This document shows positions 2,423 to 11,091 of a DNA stretch of 32,191 nt, one piece after another (within the stretch, counting starts at the first letter, position 1; each line of letters begins with the position of its first letter). The stretch covers positions 1 through 32,191 of the forward strand of contig CAMRBW010000026.1 of assembly GCA_947040555.1 (NCBI GenBank), given 5' to 3'. Both the position numbers and the translations under genes were made by a program. The notes beneath the pieces were generated by a model. That model worked only from the letters and a program-made list of their open reading frames with translations. It ran no database searches and had not been told where the DNA came from. Origin of the DNA: an uncultured Oceanospirillales bacterium. Lineage in GTDB: Bacteria; Pseudomonadota; Gammaproteobacteria; Pseudomonadales; Endozoicomonadaceae.

Positions 2423-3394
2423 ATGACCCAAGCCCGCAGCACATTAATCGACCCGAGCAACACCCCCTATTACCACTGCATCGCTCGCTGCGTGCGACGG
2501 GCTTTCCTGTGCGGAAAAGATGATCTCACTGGTAAGAGTTATGAGCATCGTAAACCGTGGGTAGTCGATCGTCTGAAAGAGCTGGCAGCGGTATTTGCCA
2601 TTGAAGTGTGCGCCTATGCAGTGATGTCCAACCATTACCATGTGGTGCTGCATGTTGATGTAGAGCGCGGAAAAAACGGGAGTGATTGTGAAGTTTTACG
2701 ACAGTGGACGCTGCTCTTTGATGGTCCGCTTCTGGTGCAGCGCTTCCTGGCAGACATCCCTTTAGGAAAAGCTGAAAGAGCCAGAGTTGCCGCGTTTGCT
2801 GCTGAATATCGCCAACGTTTGATGAGCATCAGCTGGTTTATGCGTTGTCTTAATGAACACCTTGCCCGCAAGGCCAATGAAGAAGATCAATGTAAAGGTC
2901 GGTTCTGGGAAGGACGTTTTAAAAGTCAGGCATTGCTGGATGAAGCTGCACTGTTGTCGTGTATGGCCTACGTGGATCTCAATCCGGTGCGAGCGGGTAT
3001 GGCGACAATGCCGGAAGCTTCAGACTTCACCTCTGTTCAGGAACGTATCGAGCAGTGGCGAAAGGGTCAGTGCAAAAGCTGGTTAAAACCGTTTCAAATC
3101 CGAAGCAGACAAGAGGGGGGAATCCCGTTTGCTCTGGCTGACTATTTCGAGCTGGTTGAGTGGGCGGGTCGCTCTCTCAGGGATGATAAGCGTGGGGCTA
3201 TAGCTGGTCAGTTGCCACCTATTCTTGAGCGATTGGGAATCAACCCGAATGCGTGGTTGGGTACCATGAAACCACATGGGAACCGTTTTGTATTGGGGGT
3301 CGGTCGGTTAAAAGCGCTTCGGGCCTTTGCAGAAAAAACCGGAAGACGCTGGGTGCATGGTATGGTGGCTAGCCGGTGCTTGTTTGTGGGCTGA
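2423..3394 (+). CDS. REP-associated tyrosine transposase (RAYT, Y1/HUH, IS200-like)
   Basis: The 323-residue single-strand DNA endonuclease is of the Y1 transposase superfamily. The HUH metal-binding motif is NHYH (H71, H73), and the likely catalytic Tyr is Y183 within MAYVDLNPVRAGM, a signature shared with RAYT proteins. The intervening GRFWEGRFKSQALLDE is also typical. It is longer than E. coli TnpA(REP) (about 165) and belongs to the larger form that starts with a Cys-rich N-terminus (C19, C23, C30). A strong ribosome site GGGGGAG stands 5-6 bases before the ATG. The reading frame is intact, so the enzyme may be active. Flanking copies of its repeats (2285-2363, 3585-3600 and 766-906 inverted) support a RAYT with local targets. 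It probably acts as a domesticated repeat mobiliser rather than a full IS. Confidence 0.9.
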   Translation: MTQARSTLIDPSNTPYYHCIARCVRRAFLCGKDDLTGKSYEHRKPWVVDRLKELAAVFAIEVCAYAVMSNHYHVVLHVDVERGKNGSDCEVLRQWTLLFDGPLLVQRFLADIPLGKAERARVAAFAAEYRQRLMSISWFMRCLNEHLARKANEEDQCKGRFWEGRFKSQALLDEAALLSCMAYVDLNPVRAGMATMPEASDFTSVQERIEQWRKGQCKSWLKPFQIRSRQEGGIPFALADYFELVEWAGRSLRDDKRGAIAGQLPPILERLGINPNAWLGTMKPHGNRFVLGVGRLKALRAFAEKTGRRWVHGMVASRCLFVG

Positions 3395-3878: not shown

Positions 3879-4499
3879 ATGAAAAAGACTATTTTTGCCG
3901 CTTCTATTGTCACTGTTGCCCTGATGACTGGCTGTTCTTCAGCTCAAAAAACGGACGACACTACTGCTGCACCCGCTGCGACTTCCAGTTCCTCTTCTGA
4001 ATTTACACGCTTCCAGAGCGACAGGCCTGAAGAGAAATCACTGGCTATAGGTGAAGCCAGTGTTGATGCGACTTTCAATTCCGTAGCGGGTATTTACGCA
4101 CAAACTGTGGGTTTGACTGATGCTTATATCAGCAGAGTGGAATCTGCCCCTACATTCAAAAAAATGGCAGCTTTGAAAGAATCTCAAGGTCAGGCCGTTT
4201 ACGATGCGGAAGTTGCTAAACTCACCGCTGCCGAGAAAGCTGAATACGATCAGTACCTGGATAGCTCTACGGATATCACCAAAGGGGCTATAGCACTGCT
4301 GGCTCAGGCCTACAAATTACAGCAGAGCGTCACTGCTGTAGATGTTAAAGCATTTGTCAAAAACCCCATGAAAGTACCAGGCGCATTGAAAGCAGCGAGC
4401 CTGGCGACAGATCAAATCAGTTTCTCCGTTGACTCTCTGGAAATGCTGAAAAAATACCATGACATTTACAGCAATGCCATGAGCTATCAGGGCCGATAA
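3879..4499 (+). CDS. Outer-membrane lipoprotein of unknown function
   Basis: This 206-residue protein has a short signal peptide and a lipobox LMTGC (modified Cys C19). Ser at +2 predicts sorting to the outer membrane. After the Cys comes a Thr/Ala/Ser-rich linker (about 20-42), then a largely helical, Ala/Lys/Glu-rich domain. I do not recognise the family. The gene precedes the CsgG-like lipoprotein gene by 73 bases with a perfect hairpin between them, and all five genes from here to 9993 encode exported proteins, so a shared role is plausible. The ATG lacks a good ribosome site but is the only start that keeps a complete signal peptide. Confidence 0.8.
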   Translation: MKKTIFAASIVTVALMTGCSSAQKTDDTTAAPAATSSSSSEFTRFQSDRPEEKSLAIGEASVDATFNSVAGIYAQTVGLTDAYISRVESAPTFKKMAALKESQGQAVYDAEVAKLTAAEKAEYDQYLDSSTDITKGAIALLAQAYKLQQSVTAVDVKAFVKNPMKVPGALKAASLATDQISFSVDSLEMLKKYHDIYSNAMSYQGR

Positions 4500-4510
4500 T
4501 CAGCACGTCA

Positions 4511-4532
4511 ATGAGCAGCATTCGCTGCTCAT
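4511..4532 (+). terminator. Perfect hairpin between the two lipoprotein genes
   Basis: ATGAGCAGC (4511-4519) pairs with GCTGCTCAT (4524-4532) over a four-base loop, 12 bases after a stop codon. There is no T run after it, so it may slow or stabilise transcripts rather than end them. It could separate expression of the first lipoprotein from the operon behind it. Confidence 0.45.
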
Positions 4533-4572
4533 TCCACCCTTGAATGTTTAATTAAATATCTTTGAGAAAATT

Positions 4573-5586
4573 ATGTCTATCGGCATCAAGCATGTTGGTA
4601 TCCTTGCGACTGCTATTCTGACGGGTTGTGCGGGTATGCAGGGAAAGGTACAAACTGATCCGACGCTTCATACGGTGAGCAGTGCTGATTATAAGTCCAG
4701 CAAGAAGCCTATTGAATTACCGCAGAATTACTCTACAAAAAACTATAAGCGTCTGGTTGTTGCTGTTAATTTTTTCCCAAATCAGGATGTCGGTAGCTAC
4801 AAGAATCTTCCCATAGAGACTGTTTCCACAATGATGGAGACAGATATCAGCAAGTTGAAGCGTTTCACTATTGTGTCCCGTCATCTGGGGCAGAAAGGAA
4901 AAGCCGCTGAGAAACGTTTTCAGGATATGGGCACCACTGATGCCAGCAGTAGAATGCGTTTTGGCAAAGGCATGAATGCAGACTACGGTCTGGTTGCTGG
5001 TGTCTCTGCTGTGAAGGAAGAGTATGATCGTATTGATCACAATGAAGTCCTTTATGTTATACGCGTTGATTACCAGCTGATTGATTTTGAAACGGATGAA
5101 ATCGTCGAAGCAGACACGGCTGAAGGGCGTGCGATCCGGAAAATATTCCGCTTGCCCAGTGGCAAGGTGATTGGTGGATTCGATCAATCACAAGAGGCTG
5201 ATGCTCTCAATCAGGCTTCCATTAATGCCCTCAAAATTATCGCCAACAAGATAGGCAATAAATTGCCTGTTGGTGGTCAGTTAACGGGCTTTAAAGGCAA
5301 TCGCTTCCAGATCGACAAAGGTTATGACAATGGTTTCATGGGCAAGCAGATCGTAACCCTGTACATGTCTGATATGGGTATTGATCTTCCCCTGGCTGTC
5401 GGCGAAGTCACTCCTGGTGCTGCCCAGTCTCCCGGAAAAATTATTCGCTGGTCCAATGATCCAGACGTTAAGGACATCATTGCTGATATAAAAGCTGATC
5501 CTCTGTTCTTCAAGAAGAATGAGATGTTCGCCGTCTCTAATGGTATGCCACTGCCTCCTGAGTGGGACAAGAACTACAAAGACTGA
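4573..5586 (+). CDS. CsgG/LpoB-like outer-membrane lipoprotein
   Basis: This 337-residue protein has a lipobox ILTGC (C19, Ala at +2, so outer-membrane sorting). Residues about 58-230 read like the CsgG/LpoB/FlgO-type alpha/beta fold: KRLVVAVNFFPN, then a helix, RFTIVSR, then GMNADYGLVAGVSAV followed by a strand pair (VLYVIRVDYQLIDFETDEIV) and a helix DALNQASINALKIIANKIG. Family members form secretion pores (CsgG), activate PBP1b (LpoB), or sit in flagellar outer-membrane rings. No curli, PBP or flagellar gene is nearby, so none of these roles is assigned. The C-terminal 100 residues (GYDNGFMGKQIVTLYMSD...) form a further small domain. It heads a compact group of four exported-protein genes; the next start lies 17 bases after its stop. 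Confidence 0.75.
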   Translation: MSIGIKHVGILATAILTGCAGMQGKVQTDPTLHTVSSADYKSSKKPIELPQNYSTKNYKRLVVAVNFFPNQDVGSYKNLPIETVSTMMETDISKLKRFTIVSRHLGQKGKAAEKRFQDMGTTDASSRMRFGKGMNADYGLVAGVSAVKEEYDRIDHNEVLYVIRVDYQLIDFETDEIVEADTAEGRAIRKIFRLPSGKVIGGFDQSQEADALNQASINALKIIANKIGNKLPVGGQLTGFKGNRFQIDKGYDNGFMGKQIVTLYMSDMGIDLPLAVGEVTPGAAQSPGKIIRWSNDPDVKDIIADIKADPLFFKKNEMFAVSNGMPLPPEWDKNYKD

Positions 5587-5602
5587 AGCAGGTTTAAAAA
5601 GC

Positions 5603-6913
5603 ATGCGTTCCAGAGCCAACATCCTCACTTCTCTGGTGATGATATGTGCACTGTTCGGCACTTATGGGGTAGCAGCACATGCTGCTACCCTGAAGGACGC
5701 CCACACAGTGTATTTCAACCAATATGAGACAAGTCCGGCCGGGATTATTGTGGATTCCGGGATCGTGTTTTCCACGGTTATTCTTCCGTACAGTCAGAAT
5801 GCTTCCAAAAGGTCTGTCCGAACCAAGGCGATGCTGGCGGCAGGCAAACAGCTGATTGAGCATTATGCCTTGCCGTCTCAACAATCGTCTACGGGAAGTA
5901 AATCCCTTGACCAGGCGTTGCTCAGACAGCGGGATATCCGGCTTAACAAGCTTCCTTCCCGGGTGCTGGTAAACCGTCAGGAAGGCGACCAATATCGCTA
6001 TGTTTTGGCGGTTGAAGAGTCCCATGTTAAAAAAATTTTAAGTGGGCAGATTGATAAATCTGTATCAGCCAGTGATGTGATAACCGTTCTGCAACAAATG
6101 GATATGGGAGCACATTACAGTTACCTGAGTCAGGTATTGTCTGAGCTGGGGTTACCCGAGATTGCACTCCAGTGGCAAAAAAAAGAGTTGGCTAAGGAAA
6201 TTAACCTTACCAACTATTACCAGCCGTCAAGGATTCCTTTTCACGAAAGAAAGAAAGTTCAGGAGTTGTTGGCTGACGCCACTCCCGGACTGGATTGGTT
6301 ATATGATCTGCCGGCCAGTCCCATTGTGATTGAGTACCATCTGAAGCATAACGACCTGTCGGCTGCTGAGGTACTGGCATTTGAAAGCATAATGTTGCCT
6401 GCTCTGGAGTCACAGACTTATCAGCAGGCTCAAAAAAAATGGAGCCAGGGAGAACTCAACTACCTGCCCACTTTGTCCAGAGAACAAAGCCTGGAATCGC
6501 CGTATAAGGCAGTGCAGCGTTTTCCCGGACACATCTGGTTTGGTCTGACTTTCAGTGATCAGCCAACCCCGGCTTTTGTTAAAGCGAAAGCTCTGTTCGA
6601 GCGGGGGGTTGAACTGGATAAGATCATCACGTTGCTCAAAGAAGGTATAAACCTGTCACCCAGACATAGCGAAAGCTGGCAGTATCTTGGTGCGGCTTTT
6701 ATAGCCAAAGAGCAATGGCAGGAAGCGGCCGTTGCTTATCTGCAATGGATCGTTTTACAGCCGGACAATATCGAGGCTGTGTCTCGTTTCGCAGAATCAC
6801 TTTACAGAATGGGGTTAAAAAATGAGTCTGCTCGTTTTATTCCCTATCTGCGGTTTTATTCCGATACAAATACTTTTGCTAAAAACTCTCTTCAACTCAT
6901 AGAGAAAAAATAA
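5603..6913 (+). CDS. Exported protein with C-terminal TPR repeats
   Basis: A 436-residue periplasmic protein from the chosen ATG at 5603, which gives a clean signal peptide ending near AHA (residues 25-27). An upstream in-frame ATG at 5519 lies inside the preceding gene and would bury the signal peptide. Residues about 60-150 have a basic helix (KRSVRTKAMLAAGKQLIEHY) followed later by YRYVLAVEESHVKKIL, a layout that recalls LPP20/FlgT-N modules. Residues about 325-425 form two TPR-like helical hairpins (SESWQYLGAAFIAKEQWQEA...). TPRs usually dock partner proteins. The stop codon overlaps the next start by one base (TAATG), indicating translational coupling. Function is unknown. Confidence 0.75.
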   Translation: MRSRANILTSLVMICALFGTYGVAAHAATLKDAHTVYFNQYETSPAGIIVDSGIVFSTVILPYSQNASKRSVRTKAMLAAGKQLIEHYALPSQQSSTGSKSLDQALLRQRDIRLNKLPSRVLVNRQEGDQYRYVLAVEESHVKKILSGQIDKSVSASDVITVLQQMDMGAHYSYLSQVLSELGLPEIALQWQKKELAKEINLTNYYQPSRIPFHERKKVQELLADATPGLDWLYDLPASPIVIEYHLKHNDLSAAEVLAFESIMLPALESQTYQQAQKKWSQGELNYLPTLSREQSLESPYKAVQRFPGHIWFGLTFSDQPTPAFVKAKALFERGVELDKIITLLKEGINLSPRHSESWQYLGAAFIAKEQWQEAAVAYLQWIVLQPDNIEAVSRFAESLYRMGLKNESARFIPYLRFYSDTNTFAKNSLQLIEKK

Positions 6914-8580
6914 TGCGATCTCTTTTTAAAGTGACCTTGCTGGCTCTGGCCGTATCCTCTGCTGCCCATGCTGTTGAATTCAAGCCAGGAGACACTGTAC
7001 CTTCTGCCGGCGCTGTTGTTCAGCAAGTCAGCGCCAATGATCCTGCTATTGCTGTGGTAACCCAGCTTCAGGCTGCATCTGCTGCATCTGCTTTGGAAAA
7101 AGATGCGAAAGATCTGGCAGATGAGTTTCTGGCCAGAGGTGGAGTCACAGAGGGATGGAACACCGATAAGAAAATTTATGTAGCGGTTTCTGAAGCGATC
7201 TTCGATTCTGAAGACCCTTCCTATGATGACAGCTTTATTATCAAGCGTTCATTGAAGTCTATGGAAGCGGCACTGGATGCCAAAAGAACGATTATTGAAT
7301 ACATTCACACGGATATGTCCGCTTCCGACAGGGTCAGCACGCCAGGAACGGATTTAAACACAGAATTTAAGGACAAGCTCGACCAGCTTGAGAGAAAGGC
7401 TGAATCCCAAAGAAAGCAAATTGCCAAGTTGATGGAAACCATGGACGCTCAGGAAGCAGAGATGCTGCATGGAGTGACTTTTGGTGACCGTGCCAACGCC
7501 CTGATGGATGCAGCGATCAAAAAAATTGATGCCGGGTTTAACTCTGGCGCCATCGCTGCTGAGAAAAAAGTCAGTTTTGATCGGGCCAAAAACAATTATC
7601 AGTCAGCCATGACTGATCATGAAACCACCATGAATGAGCTTAATGCTCTGGCGGGAAGTGTCACAGGTGAATCCTACAGCATGGTTGAAGCTGTGGCTAA
7701 AATGCCGCTGTTTGGTGCAGTGACTACCGCTCAATTTGAATCCTGGGATCCCGATCGCCAACAATATAAAGTGGCCATGATCACTATCTGGTCTCCGAAG
7801 CAGGAAGAGATGGTGAGAGCCATGATTACAGGTGAGGCTAAAACCGCACCTCAGGGACGGCAGAGTCTGATTGAGTATCTCAACGGTCAGGACTGGTCCA
7901 CTGCGACCGGTGGTCGTAAGTTTCGTGATAACCAGGGCAACTTCTATATTCTTGGTGTTGCGGCCAGCCCTGTTGGTAGCAGCTCCTCTTCTGAGCGCAA
8001 GGCTCGTGGTGTTGCCGAACTGATGGCAAGAAAAGAGGTGGCTACAGCGCTGTATGCGGACGTCGCCTCCCAGCAGAAAGCTGAGCAGGCTATGGCAACC
8101 ATGAGTGGTGGTGCCGGTAAGGATGTCAGCGTTGCTGCGGAAAGTTTTTCCAGTGAACTGGCTCAGAGTATTGAAAACCGCGCCGTTCAGGGTCTGTCCC
8201 GACGTTTCGGCAGGCGTGTGACTCACCCGATCTCTGGTCAGGATATTTACGTCAGCATCTACTCAATTGATGCAGGCAGTATTGCCAACGCCAAGATTAT
8301 GAAAGCCAGCCAATACCAGACCAAAGCGCTTGATGTGCAATCTCAGCAGGAGATAAAAGGCGCACAGGCAGGTTACGAGCAGGCTATTCAGAAGACAGAG
8401 AATAACCGTACAGCGTTTAATAATGCCAAAGTCGCAGCAGCAGACAGCGTTCAGGTTTCCACTGCGCCAGAAAAATCTCGTCCGGTACAGCAGCAAGCAC
8501 CTGCAAAAACAAATCAATCCGGTGCCGGTTCCTACTCTGGTGGTGGTAATGCAGATGCCTCTGACGCCTTTGGCTGGTAA
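6913..8580 (+). CDS. Periplasmic coiled-coil protein with duplicated LPP20-like modules
   Basis: The 555-residue protein has a signal peptide cleaved after residues 18-20 (AHA). Two segments look like copies of one module: WNTDKKIYVAVSEAIF (about 82-97) and WDPDRQQYKVAMITIW (about 277-292). Each is followed by an Ala/Lys/Arg-rich helix (RSLKSMEAALDAKRTIIEYI near 112; ERKARGVAELMARKEVATAL near 360). Between them, residues about 153-245 are predicted coiled coil. The tail (about 490-555) is Gln/Ala- then Gly/Ser-rich and ends in aromatic FGW, which could be an exposed linker. I do not recognise a named family. The start overlaps the previous stop by one base. It is followed 15 bases later by the FlgT-like gene with an AAGGG ribosome site. 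Confidence 0.75.
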   Translation: MRSLFKVTLLALAVSSAAHAVEFKPGDTVPSAGAVVQQVSANDPAIAVVTQLQAASAASALEKDAKDLADEFLARGGVTEGWNTDKKIYVAVSEAIFDSEDPSYDDSFIIKRSLKSMEAALDAKRTIIEYIHTDMSASDRVSTPGTDLNTEFKDKLDQLERKAESQRKQIAKLMETMDAQEAEMLHGVTFGDRANALMDAAIKKIDAGFNSGAIAAEKKVSFDRAKNNYQSAMTDHETTMNELNALAGSVTGESYSMVEAVAKMPLFGAVTTAQFESWDPDRQQYKVAMITIWSPKQEEMVRAMITGEAKTAPQGRQSLIEYLNGQDWSTATGGRKFRDNQGNFYILGVAASPVGSSSSSERKARGVAELMARKEVATALYADVASQQKAEQAMATMSGGAGKDVSVAAESFSSELAQSIENRAVQGLSRRFGRRVTHPISGQDIYVSIYSIDAGSIANAKIMKASQYQTKALDVQSQQEIKGAQAGYEQAIQKTENNRTAFNNAKVAAADSVQVSTAPEKSRPVQQQAPAKTNQSGAGSYSGGGNADASDAFGW

Positions 8581-8595
8581 GGGATAAAACGATCT

Positions 8596-9993
8596 ATGAA
8601 ACGTTGGATATTGATAGTGGCAACACTGTTCGTGTTGCCGACTTTTGCCAGCGCTTCTCTTGATGCAACCGTCAACATGATGCTGGCCAATGGCCAGCAG
8701 ATGGAGATGCATAACGACAAGACCCTCGGGCGTACCGTGATCGCTATCGGTCTTGGTATGCATCGTAAGGCCAATGTCGCTCAAGAGATGGCCCGGCAAG
8801 ATGCCATGAAGTCCCTGACCGCTTTCCTCAAAGGTGAGCGTGTCTCCTCCGTTGAGAGAGCGAGCCAGAGCTGGAAAGGCGATGTTGCAATGCAGGATTA
8901 TTACTCTGCGATCACAACCAACGTCCAGGGTAGCCTGAAAGCGGCCTGGAACTTCAAGGCTGGAGAGCATGAGGGGATGACCTACAGCGTTATGGTTATT
9001 TCCGAGCGTAGCAAAGACTTCTCTGATGTCCTGAATAAACGGGGAGGCACCATTGAGGCCAGGGGTATTGCTTCCCTATCCTCCGGTGTTGAATCGGCCC
9101 GTGCAACCGCTTTGAACAATGCCTTGCGCAGCGCGGTTGAACAATATGGCGGTGTGCAGATGGCGGCAAAAACCACCATCGAAAATGCTGAGTCTTATCG
9201 GGCCAAGCTCTCATCGGTTTCATCCGGACATGTCAGTCGCTACAAGGTGACTGACGAGTACCAGAGAGGTGGCAACTACTATGTGATCATTGCGGCAGAA
9301 GTAAGCGACACACCTCCTGACGGCAAGAAGACGATCGCCGCCATTCAGGAAAATATGGGCCGCCCGTCTTTCGCAATAAAAACCGATAATGCGGAAGTCT
9401 CACGGCTGCTTCGAGAGCTGCTTGCAGCCAGTAACTTTGAGGTGGCATCCTCACCCCAAAGTGCCCGATACCTGATCAATGCCTCTGTCAGTAAATATGA
9501 ATACAAGGCGATGGCGGGTATGACCGGGTTGCAGACGACCATTAAAGTGCGTATCAGCGACCGTTTCGGCAAGGATGACTTGATCAATATTTCTACTGAT
9601 CCAAACGAGAGTGTAGAAATTTCTGATTCCAGCACTTTGCGGGAGCAAAACTCCCTTAAGTACGCGATGGAAGATCTGCAGCCAAAGCTGGTTGGTGCCA
9701 TTCAAAAACAGTTTGTTAATCAGTTTAATAACGGTGCCAAAATAGCGGTTTCGCTGAAAAACTTTGATCGTATGAGAGATGTTGACGAGTTGAAAGCCTG
9801 TCTGGAAAGCCTGCCTTTAACCAAGTCTGTCAGCGTTCAGCCGATTCAGAACCGCACCGCTCGTTATGATGTGATCTACCTGGGAGATCCGGCCAGTTTG
9901 CAGTTGGATGTGCTGAAGAAGTCACGCTCTTTCAGGTTGCGGGGACTGAGAGCACGTAGTTCTGACTCAGGAGCTGTGGTTTTGTCATTTTAA
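8596..9993 (+). CDS. FlgT-like periplasmic protein
   Basis: The 465-residue exported protein has a signal peptide ending at ASA (18-20). Residues about 40-135 and 155-240 look like two LPP20/FlgT-N-type modules: AQEMARQDAMKSLTAFL, and ARATALNNALRSAVEQYGGV followed by YYVIIAAEVSD. Residues about 250-375 resemble a TolB-N/CsgG-like alpha/beta domain, and about 380-465 form a small C-terminal domain. In vibrios FlgT forms the H ring around the flagellar motor with FlgO/FlgP, but no flagellar gene is in view, so the name is a fold-level comparison only. It is the last gene of the group and is followed by a very strong hairpin at 10023-10060. Ribosome site AAGGG at 8579-8583. Confidence 0.75.
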   Translation: MKRWILIVATLFVLPTFASASLDATVNMMLANGQQMEMHNDKTLGRTVIAIGLGMHRKANVAQEMARQDAMKSLTAFLKGERVSSVERASQSWKGDVAMQDYYSAITTNVQGSLKAAWNFKAGEHEGMTYSVMVISERSKDFSDVLNKRGGTIEARGIASLSSGVESARATALNNALRSAVEQYGGVQMAAKTTIENAESYRAKLSSVSSGHVSRYKVTDEYQRGGNYYVIIAAEVSDTPPDGKKTIAAIQENMGRPSFAIKTDNAEVSRLLRELLAASNFEVASSPQSARYLINASVSKYEYKAMAGMTGLQTTIKVRISDRFGKDDLINISTDPNESVEISDSSTLREQNSLKYAMEDLQPKLVGAIQKQFVNQFNNGAKIAVSLKNFDRMRDVDELKACLESLPLTKSVSVQPIQNRTARYDVIYLGDPASLQLDVLKKSRSFRLRGLRARSSDSGAVVLSF

Positions 9994-10022
9994 ACGGATG
10001 ACAATGACAATCTAAACTCCCT

Positions 10023-10060
10023 GCCCCCTGCCGGAGTACACTCCGGCAGGGGGCACTTTT
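10023..10060 (+). terminator. Strong terminator closing the envelope-protein operon
   Basis: A 14-bp perfect stem (10023-10036 with 10041-10054) around a TACA loop, followed by ACTTTT. It lies 29 bases after the stop of the FlgT-like gene. Confidence 0.9.
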
Positions 10061-10193: not shown

Positions 10194-11091
10194 TTATAAG
10201 GAGGCAGCAGGTAACGGGGATGATACATCCACAGAGGTATTGTTCATCAAGCTTTTTGTAAATTTCTCCAGAACTGCGTCGATCTTATTTAATTCACCTT
10301 TCATCTTGTCTGGACCGGTTTTTTTTAGCTCATCACGTAGTTTTAGCAGGTGTATAAAGTGCCATCTTGAATTTTTTTTTGAATAAGCTGTCTTCACAAT
10401 TTTTTTAATAGTTGTTTGTGCAATCTCGCTCTTATTCATTCGAAGTGCGCAGACAAGCATCGTTAGATGCAGTGAACTCATTTTATTGAGATCCGTTATC
10501 GAATCAGAGAGTTTTAATGCAATTTTTTCCAGAGAAGGGTCAGGGTCAGGAGTATGGCGTATTGCGTATTGCGTATTGCGTATTGCGTATTGCGTATTGC
10601 GTAGCCAATGATGGCCAATGATGATTCTTTCCATGTTCCAATAGTTCGCATGGTGAGGTTTTTTGCAATGGCTGTTAGCCCATGGTTTGTTAAAGCCTTG
10701 CCTGCCCACCCTTCGTTTGTCAGTTTTTTGTTTAAAATTTGAACGCTCTCGGGCAAATAAAGATCACAGGCTAAAAAGACCAGATCATTTTCAGTGAGTG
10801 AGTTTAAATTGTGATCTGCGATTTTCTTATCCAGAGCATTTAATTTGTCGATCCATTTTTTTTCATGGCTTTTCGGAAAATGTTGCGCAAGTCCCTTGTA
10901 GAGAGAGCCATGGGCCAGAGGATTTTGATCAGTTACATAAGAAAGGGGACCCTGTGATTGTTGGTGCGTTGAGCGTCGATTGGATGGGGTTCGACAGAGG
11001 TAGTATTATTGACCCTTTGTTGGGTGGGTTTTGGTTGAAAAAGATAGACATAGCCTCCCATACCTTTTCCTCCCACAGACATCACTGCCAT
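10194..11091 (-). pseudogene. Frameshifted or phase-variable gene of unknown function
   Basis: Reading the minus strand, three protein-like frames follow one another. Frame i runs from ATG 11091 to a stop at 10933 (about 52 residues, Gly-rich start then PHPIDAQRTNN). Frame ii is open from about 11005 to 10514 and reads GPLSYVTDQNPLAHGSLYKG, then helical Lys/Leu/Asn-rich sequence including LVFLACDLYLPESVQILNKK. Frame iii is convincing from about 10555 to the stop at 10194 (SLEKIALKLSDSITDLNKMS through RWHFIHLLKLRDELKK). Frame i to ii switches between 10933 and 11005. Frame ii to iii switches at a 7-bp microsatellite (10558-10604) plus a 10-bp duplication (10604-10623). The joined product would be roughly 290 mostly helical residues. 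No family recognised; host-interaction genes often look like this, but that is speculation. Confidence 0.55.
10558..10604. repeat. Heptanucleotide microsatellite (GCGTATT)6.7
   Basis: Six full GCGTATT copies plus five bases of a seventh, perfect throughout, followed at once by a perfect 10-bp tandem duplication (GCCAATGATG at 10604-10613 and 10614-10623). Seven is not a multiple of three, so each gain or loss shifts the frame of the minus-strand gene. One extra copy or two fewer would join frame ii to frame iii. Confidence 0.95.

Follow-up and report, generated by a model that had tools for sequence, protein, structure and literature searches.

A patchily distributed gene set with FlgT-, CsgG- and LPP20-like modules as a candidate non-flagellar outer-membrane scaffold of marine Gammaproteobacteria

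The 32,191-nucleotide stretch of DNA analysed here (the window) carries five neighbouring genes, g0 to g4, whose products are exported and which are kept together across distant Gammaproteobacteria. On this basis the locus is read as specifying a periplasmic scaffold that is anchored in the outer membrane and is not flagellar, with a ring or a disk as its most likely shape, a reading that is preferred with middling confidence. A narrower version of it is more tentative: the products would form a free-standing ring or disk machine of H-ring modules, independent of the flagellum, sharing ancestry with the flagellar rings and in some versions accompanied by its own murein-cutting enzyme. FlgT and CsgG are ring formers, and rings of the FlgT/FlgP type are known from flagella; LPP20, FlgT_N and CsgG-like folds are also present in proteins that do not assemble into rings. 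The initial annotation had proposed a separate ring- or pore-forming assembly, and its non-flagellar nature, the joint travel of its genes and the FlgT/CsgG-like folds are borne out below, while the forming of a ring or pore is the part that we infer. The set is probably an unstudied outer-membrane scaffold, and in the open-access literature searched no publication was found that treats it as a system. Finding these modules in a cell that has no L and P rings provides a direct way to ask about the origin of the rings and their stand-alone role, and brings uncharacterised genes from marine symbionts into one testable frame with, at a greater distance, a Francisella operon.

All five genes lie on the forward strand. 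Four are tightly packed, as first described: the ORF calls give g1 (4573-5586, 337 aa), g2 (5603-6913, 436 aa), g3 (6913-8580, 555 aa) and g4 (8596-9993, 465 aa), with 16 bases between g1 and g2, an overlap of one base between g2 and g3, and 15 bases between g3 and g4. The count of four genes did not hold, since a small helical lipoprotein gene that had been overlooked, g0 (3879-4499, 206 aa; recognised by its lipobox and its position in relatives), heads the set, for a total of five at this locus and as many as eight in other genomes. The stop codon of g0 lies 73 bases 5' of g1, and a forward-strand hairpin without a T-run between the two genes (4510-4533; fold of 4500-4550, -16.8 kcal/mol, z -4.3) is a possible site for processing or attenuation. 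The terminator noticed behind g4 is present at 10022-10055 on the same strand, with a stem computed as 15 pairs, a 4-base loop and a following CTTTTAT (-35.5 kcal/mol, z -8.5 vs shuffles). Export signals are likewise found on all four proteins originally listed, with a lipobox (LTGC followed by A) at the N-terminus of g1 and a signal peptide without lipobox in each of g2, g3 and g4; the lipobox of g0 has Ser at +2. On inspection, none of the window proteins has an obvious inner-membrane helix past the signal peptide. The genes are real, dN between the window and E. acroporae being 0.17-0.34 with saturated dS. An Rfam search gave no match. Upstream of the set (2423-3394) is a transposase gene of the IS200/REP-associated type (Y1_Tnp match under the cut-off), and 3' of the terminator (10552-10603) the 7-base repeat GTATTGC occurs seven times.

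The set is rare, has a patchy distribution that bears signs of horizontal transfer, and is found in a few marine bacteria. Relatives of g3 occur in 3 of 37 genomes of the family, in 5 of 247 Vibrionaceae and in 1 of 369 genomes of the class, that one being the window's own. That the genes travel together is upheld by two gene orders kept in distant gammaproteobacterial hosts and by a diverged Vibrio version. A Methylococcaceae MAG (L007) shares the order of the window, g0-g1-g2-g3-g4, and the order g0-g1-g4-g2-g3 is found in XeTr1 (L004, Endozoicomonadaceae) and in Vibrionaceae. The Vibrionaceae sets add g6 (an LPP20 lipoprotein), g7, predicted from its SLT domain to be an MltC-like lytic transglycosylase, and g5 (LPP20), which has two alternative places; the transglycosylase and LPP20 genes (g5, g6) are absent at the window locus. 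Relatives of g1 are present in the related sets, and those of g0 share its position in L007, L004 and L021-L024. Because identity among the latter is low (17-24%), the membership of g0, which belongs to the set, rests on position, size and a shared pattern. The g2 protein has weak Pfam TPR matches towards its C-terminus, near residues 337-408, and its positional homologues precede g3 in L005, L007, L004, L008 and L021-L024.

Not every part is always needed, because G650 has g0-g1-g4-g6-g7-g5 without g2 and g3, and in E. acroporae g1 is reduced to its last 47 residues; g2-g4 of the latter still show purifying constraint when compared with the window. The arrangement in G650 suggests that g2 and g3 are gained or lost together as a unit. 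In the diverged version, seen in two Vibrio-family genomes (L065, L066), equivalents of g1, g4, g5 and g7 are recognised at 85-100% profile probability, g6 is weakly matched, and g0, g2 and g3 are assigned by position only; the diverged g1 occurs in 18 Vibrionaceae genomes. In XeTr1, a member of the window's family, g1 shares 70-75% identity with the Vibrionaceae genes but 28% with that of the window, which points to horizontal transfer. A phage or plasmid origin was considered and dropped, tblastn having found no match for g3 in the phage collection and none for the Aliivibrio relative of g3 among the plasmids. Several neighbours differ between loci. In two Vibrionaceae genomes the operon is followed by a membrane protein that bears a zincin-like motif and weakly matches DUF3267 (L021, 13390-14160; L022, 13407-14177), a gene for a β-barrel outer-membrane protein lies directly after g4 on the opposite strand in E. 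acroporae (L005, 11397-12062), and in G288 (L050, 2079-4465) a g1-type protein stands behind a lipoprotein that looks SPOR-like to the eye, without the rest of the set.

By its sequence, the exported protein g4 carries two tandem FlgT_N/LPP20-type modules followed by a C-terminal half. Residues 152-237 match Pfam FlgT_N at 37.3 bits (cut-off 28.8), and hhalign relates the first module to the second at 86.7% (E 4e-6). The g4 profile also matches 9hmf_C (E 3e-4), deposited as a putative lipoprotein and possibly FlgP, and FlgP lends this match weak support. The structure model of g1 (mean pLDDT 59, from a shallow alignment, so that details and inserts are uncertain) finds its best fold match in the LPHT-ring chain 8z5n (E 3e-11), followed by FlgT 3w1e (E 7e-10) and, with the same low confidence in the model, CsgG 4uv2 (E 4e-7), in agreement with the CsgG-like fold claimed at the outset. 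Its C-terminal domain, as read by eye, looks like FlgT-C, and g1 and FlgT stay in register throughout a weak profile alignment. Judging from these best matches, g1 would be an outer-membrane-type lipoprotein combining FlgT-M/C-like parts with a CsgG/LpoB-like fold. PDB matches of g1 to XaxB (E 0.006) are put down to chance, as they cover one stretch and are absent from the fold search.

These modules recall the Vibrio H-ring (FlgO, FlgP, FlgT), with which the set shares the FlgT_N modules of g4, the FlgT-like fold of g1, an LPP20 lipoprotein (g6, in Vibrionaceae) and the character of outer-membrane-linked periplasmic proteins. The set is not the flagellar H-ring, because the L- and P-ring proteins FlgH and FlgI were not found in the window genome (3.5 Mb, 208 contigs, 98.7% complete), and in the Vibrionaceae carriers a canonical FlgT lies beside FlgO/FlgP near flagellar genes, at a locus apart from the set. 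FlgH and FlgI were also not found in G425. The expected lack of orthology to a flagellar set is thus supported, and the set differs further from the H-ring in dividing the domain arrangement over two proteins and in its extra TPR and coiled-coil proteins. Nor is the set curli: the ORFs examined beside it, in the window and at the related loci, included neither a curlin-like substrate nor CsgE or CsgF, and the initial annotation had likewise seen no curli gene nearby.

A first alternative is that the locus regulates peptidoglycan synthesis, with g1 acting like LpoB by reaching through the wall to the UB2H domain of PBP1B, the other proteins positioning it and the linked lytic transglycosylase balancing synthesis against cutting. 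In its favour, g1 is a lipoprotein with a Pfam LpoB-type domain above the cut-off (24.4 bits vs 22.3), the window genome contains a PBP1B with UB2H and no further LpoB was found in it, an MltC-like enzyme accompanies the Vibrionaceae versions, and the Francisella protein FTT1540c is annotated as LpoB (PMC8149597). Against this, g1 falls far under the cut-off of the NCBIfam LpoB equivalog (16.6 vs 110.6), exceeds Vibrio LpoB in length by about 140 residues and has another C-terminal domain, and its model matches FlgT and CsgG better. Moreover, most carriers tested (XeTr1 and four Vibrionaceae) have a full canonical LpoB as a separate gene, and G425 has g1 with no match to UB2H. This role is considered unlikely as the main function of the set, although in the window genome, where PBP1B is present and no other LpoB was found, g1 may serve also as LpoB.

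Somewhat less probable still is a CsgG-like secretion pore, in which g1 would be the outer-membrane channel for some substrate and g4, g3 and g2 its periplasmic adaptors. The likeness to the curli channel lies in the fold of the g1 core, CsgG being among its best fold matches, and one Vibrionaceae g1 has a weak Pfam match to CsgG. However, g1 bears an extra C-terminal FlgT-C-like domain, the substrate and accessory proteins of curli were not seen beside the set, and the low-probability alignment with E. coli CsgG shows gaps in g1 at the first membrane hairpin of CsgG, the remaining hairpin being charge-rich on reading. Given these gaps in a weak alignment, a CsgG-style pore seems less probable than a ring.

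The g3 protein is modelled by AF2 as two β-α-β-β modules, the first of which is split by a long coiled coil; the model comes from a shallow alignment (mean pLDDT 60), and its details and inserts are uncertain. The strand-helix order is compatible with LPP20. Direct profile comparison was tried as proof of LPP20 modules in g3 and did not provide it, hhalign against LPP20 proteins staying below 1%, and no Pfam match was obtained. The LPP20/FlgT-N modules first reported are borne out for g4 by Pfam FlgT_N, and in g3 are suggested by a modest model without profile match. DUF6844, considered as a possible name, yielded neither a Pfam match nor a paper. In a search of the PDB, the sole significant fold match of the g3 model is 4QVR, Francisella FTT1539c (Foldseek E 6e-9, probability 1.0, 408 columns, TM 0.56 to the target, rmsd 15, 14% identity): the local domains are alike, and the overall arrangement does not superpose. 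Sequence-level PDB searches with the whole g3 profile and with its C-terminal module returned nothing useful. An acidic-aromatic C-terminal tail of g3 (DAFGW, DSFDW, DEDDF, DDDDF) occurs in the window, L004, L007, L008 and L021-L024 and is absent from the diverged Vibrio versions; it is a possible docking signal.

FTT1539c belongs to a predicted four-gene operon, FTT1537c-FTT1540c (PMC4696196), which, given the fold match to g3 and the LpoB-type annotation of FTT1540c, parallel to g1, is likely a distant relative of the set; the likeness is drawn from a modelled fold and an annotation, and there is no match at the sequence level. A transposon mutant of FTT1538c is mildly attenuated, with polar effects possible (PMC4696196). 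A role in shaping outer-membrane vesicles or tubes, as perhaps for the Francisella products found in tubular vesicles, is improbable here: FTT1538c is detected in the vesicles and sera of vesicle-immunised mice recognise FTT1539c (PMC6795709, PMC10963506), but any outer-membrane-associated protein is expected in vesicles, and the link to Francisella consists of the annotation and of that single fold match, with 14% identity.

For the preferred reading, a periplasmic scaffold anchored in the outer membrane, the nearest known job is that of the H-ring, which helps polar flagella across the outer membrane (PMC7990780). A second parallel is the basal and medial disk of Campylobacter (FlgP, FlgQ, PflA), which likewise combines two-module SHS2-type proteins (compare FlgQ) with a TPR protein and includes the FlgP possibly represented by 9hmf_C. 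Unlike the Campylobacter disk, the set occurs in a window genome without a flagellum and with no PflC/PflD-type protein seen, and the sequence relation is very weak. According to a published rule for the SHS2/FlgP family, ring formation correlates with an insertion located after the helix and before the second strand (PMC12222027). The placement of the g3 coiled coil after the SHS2 helix fits this correlation, as do the extra 20-30 residues that g4, on visual inspection, carries between helix and second strand. In such a scaffold g0 and g1 would be located at the outer membrane, on its inner face, and g1 and g4 could form oligomers as lateral neighbours, in the manner of FlgT in the H-ring. 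The coiled coil of g3 and the TPRs of g2 might then serve as spacer and connector towards the wall, comparable to Campylobacter PflA and other TPR disk proteins. In the Vibrionaceae versions the two LPP20 proteins may widen the assembly, and the MltC-like g7 may clear murein for it. Such an assembly might enclose a conduit, lend stiffness to the outer membrane or give vesicles their shape. G425 also contains a second FlgT-like gene with a neighbour that looks LPP20-like when read (L040, 1191-3034); FlgH and FlgI were not found there, and the pair is possibly another non-flagellar set.
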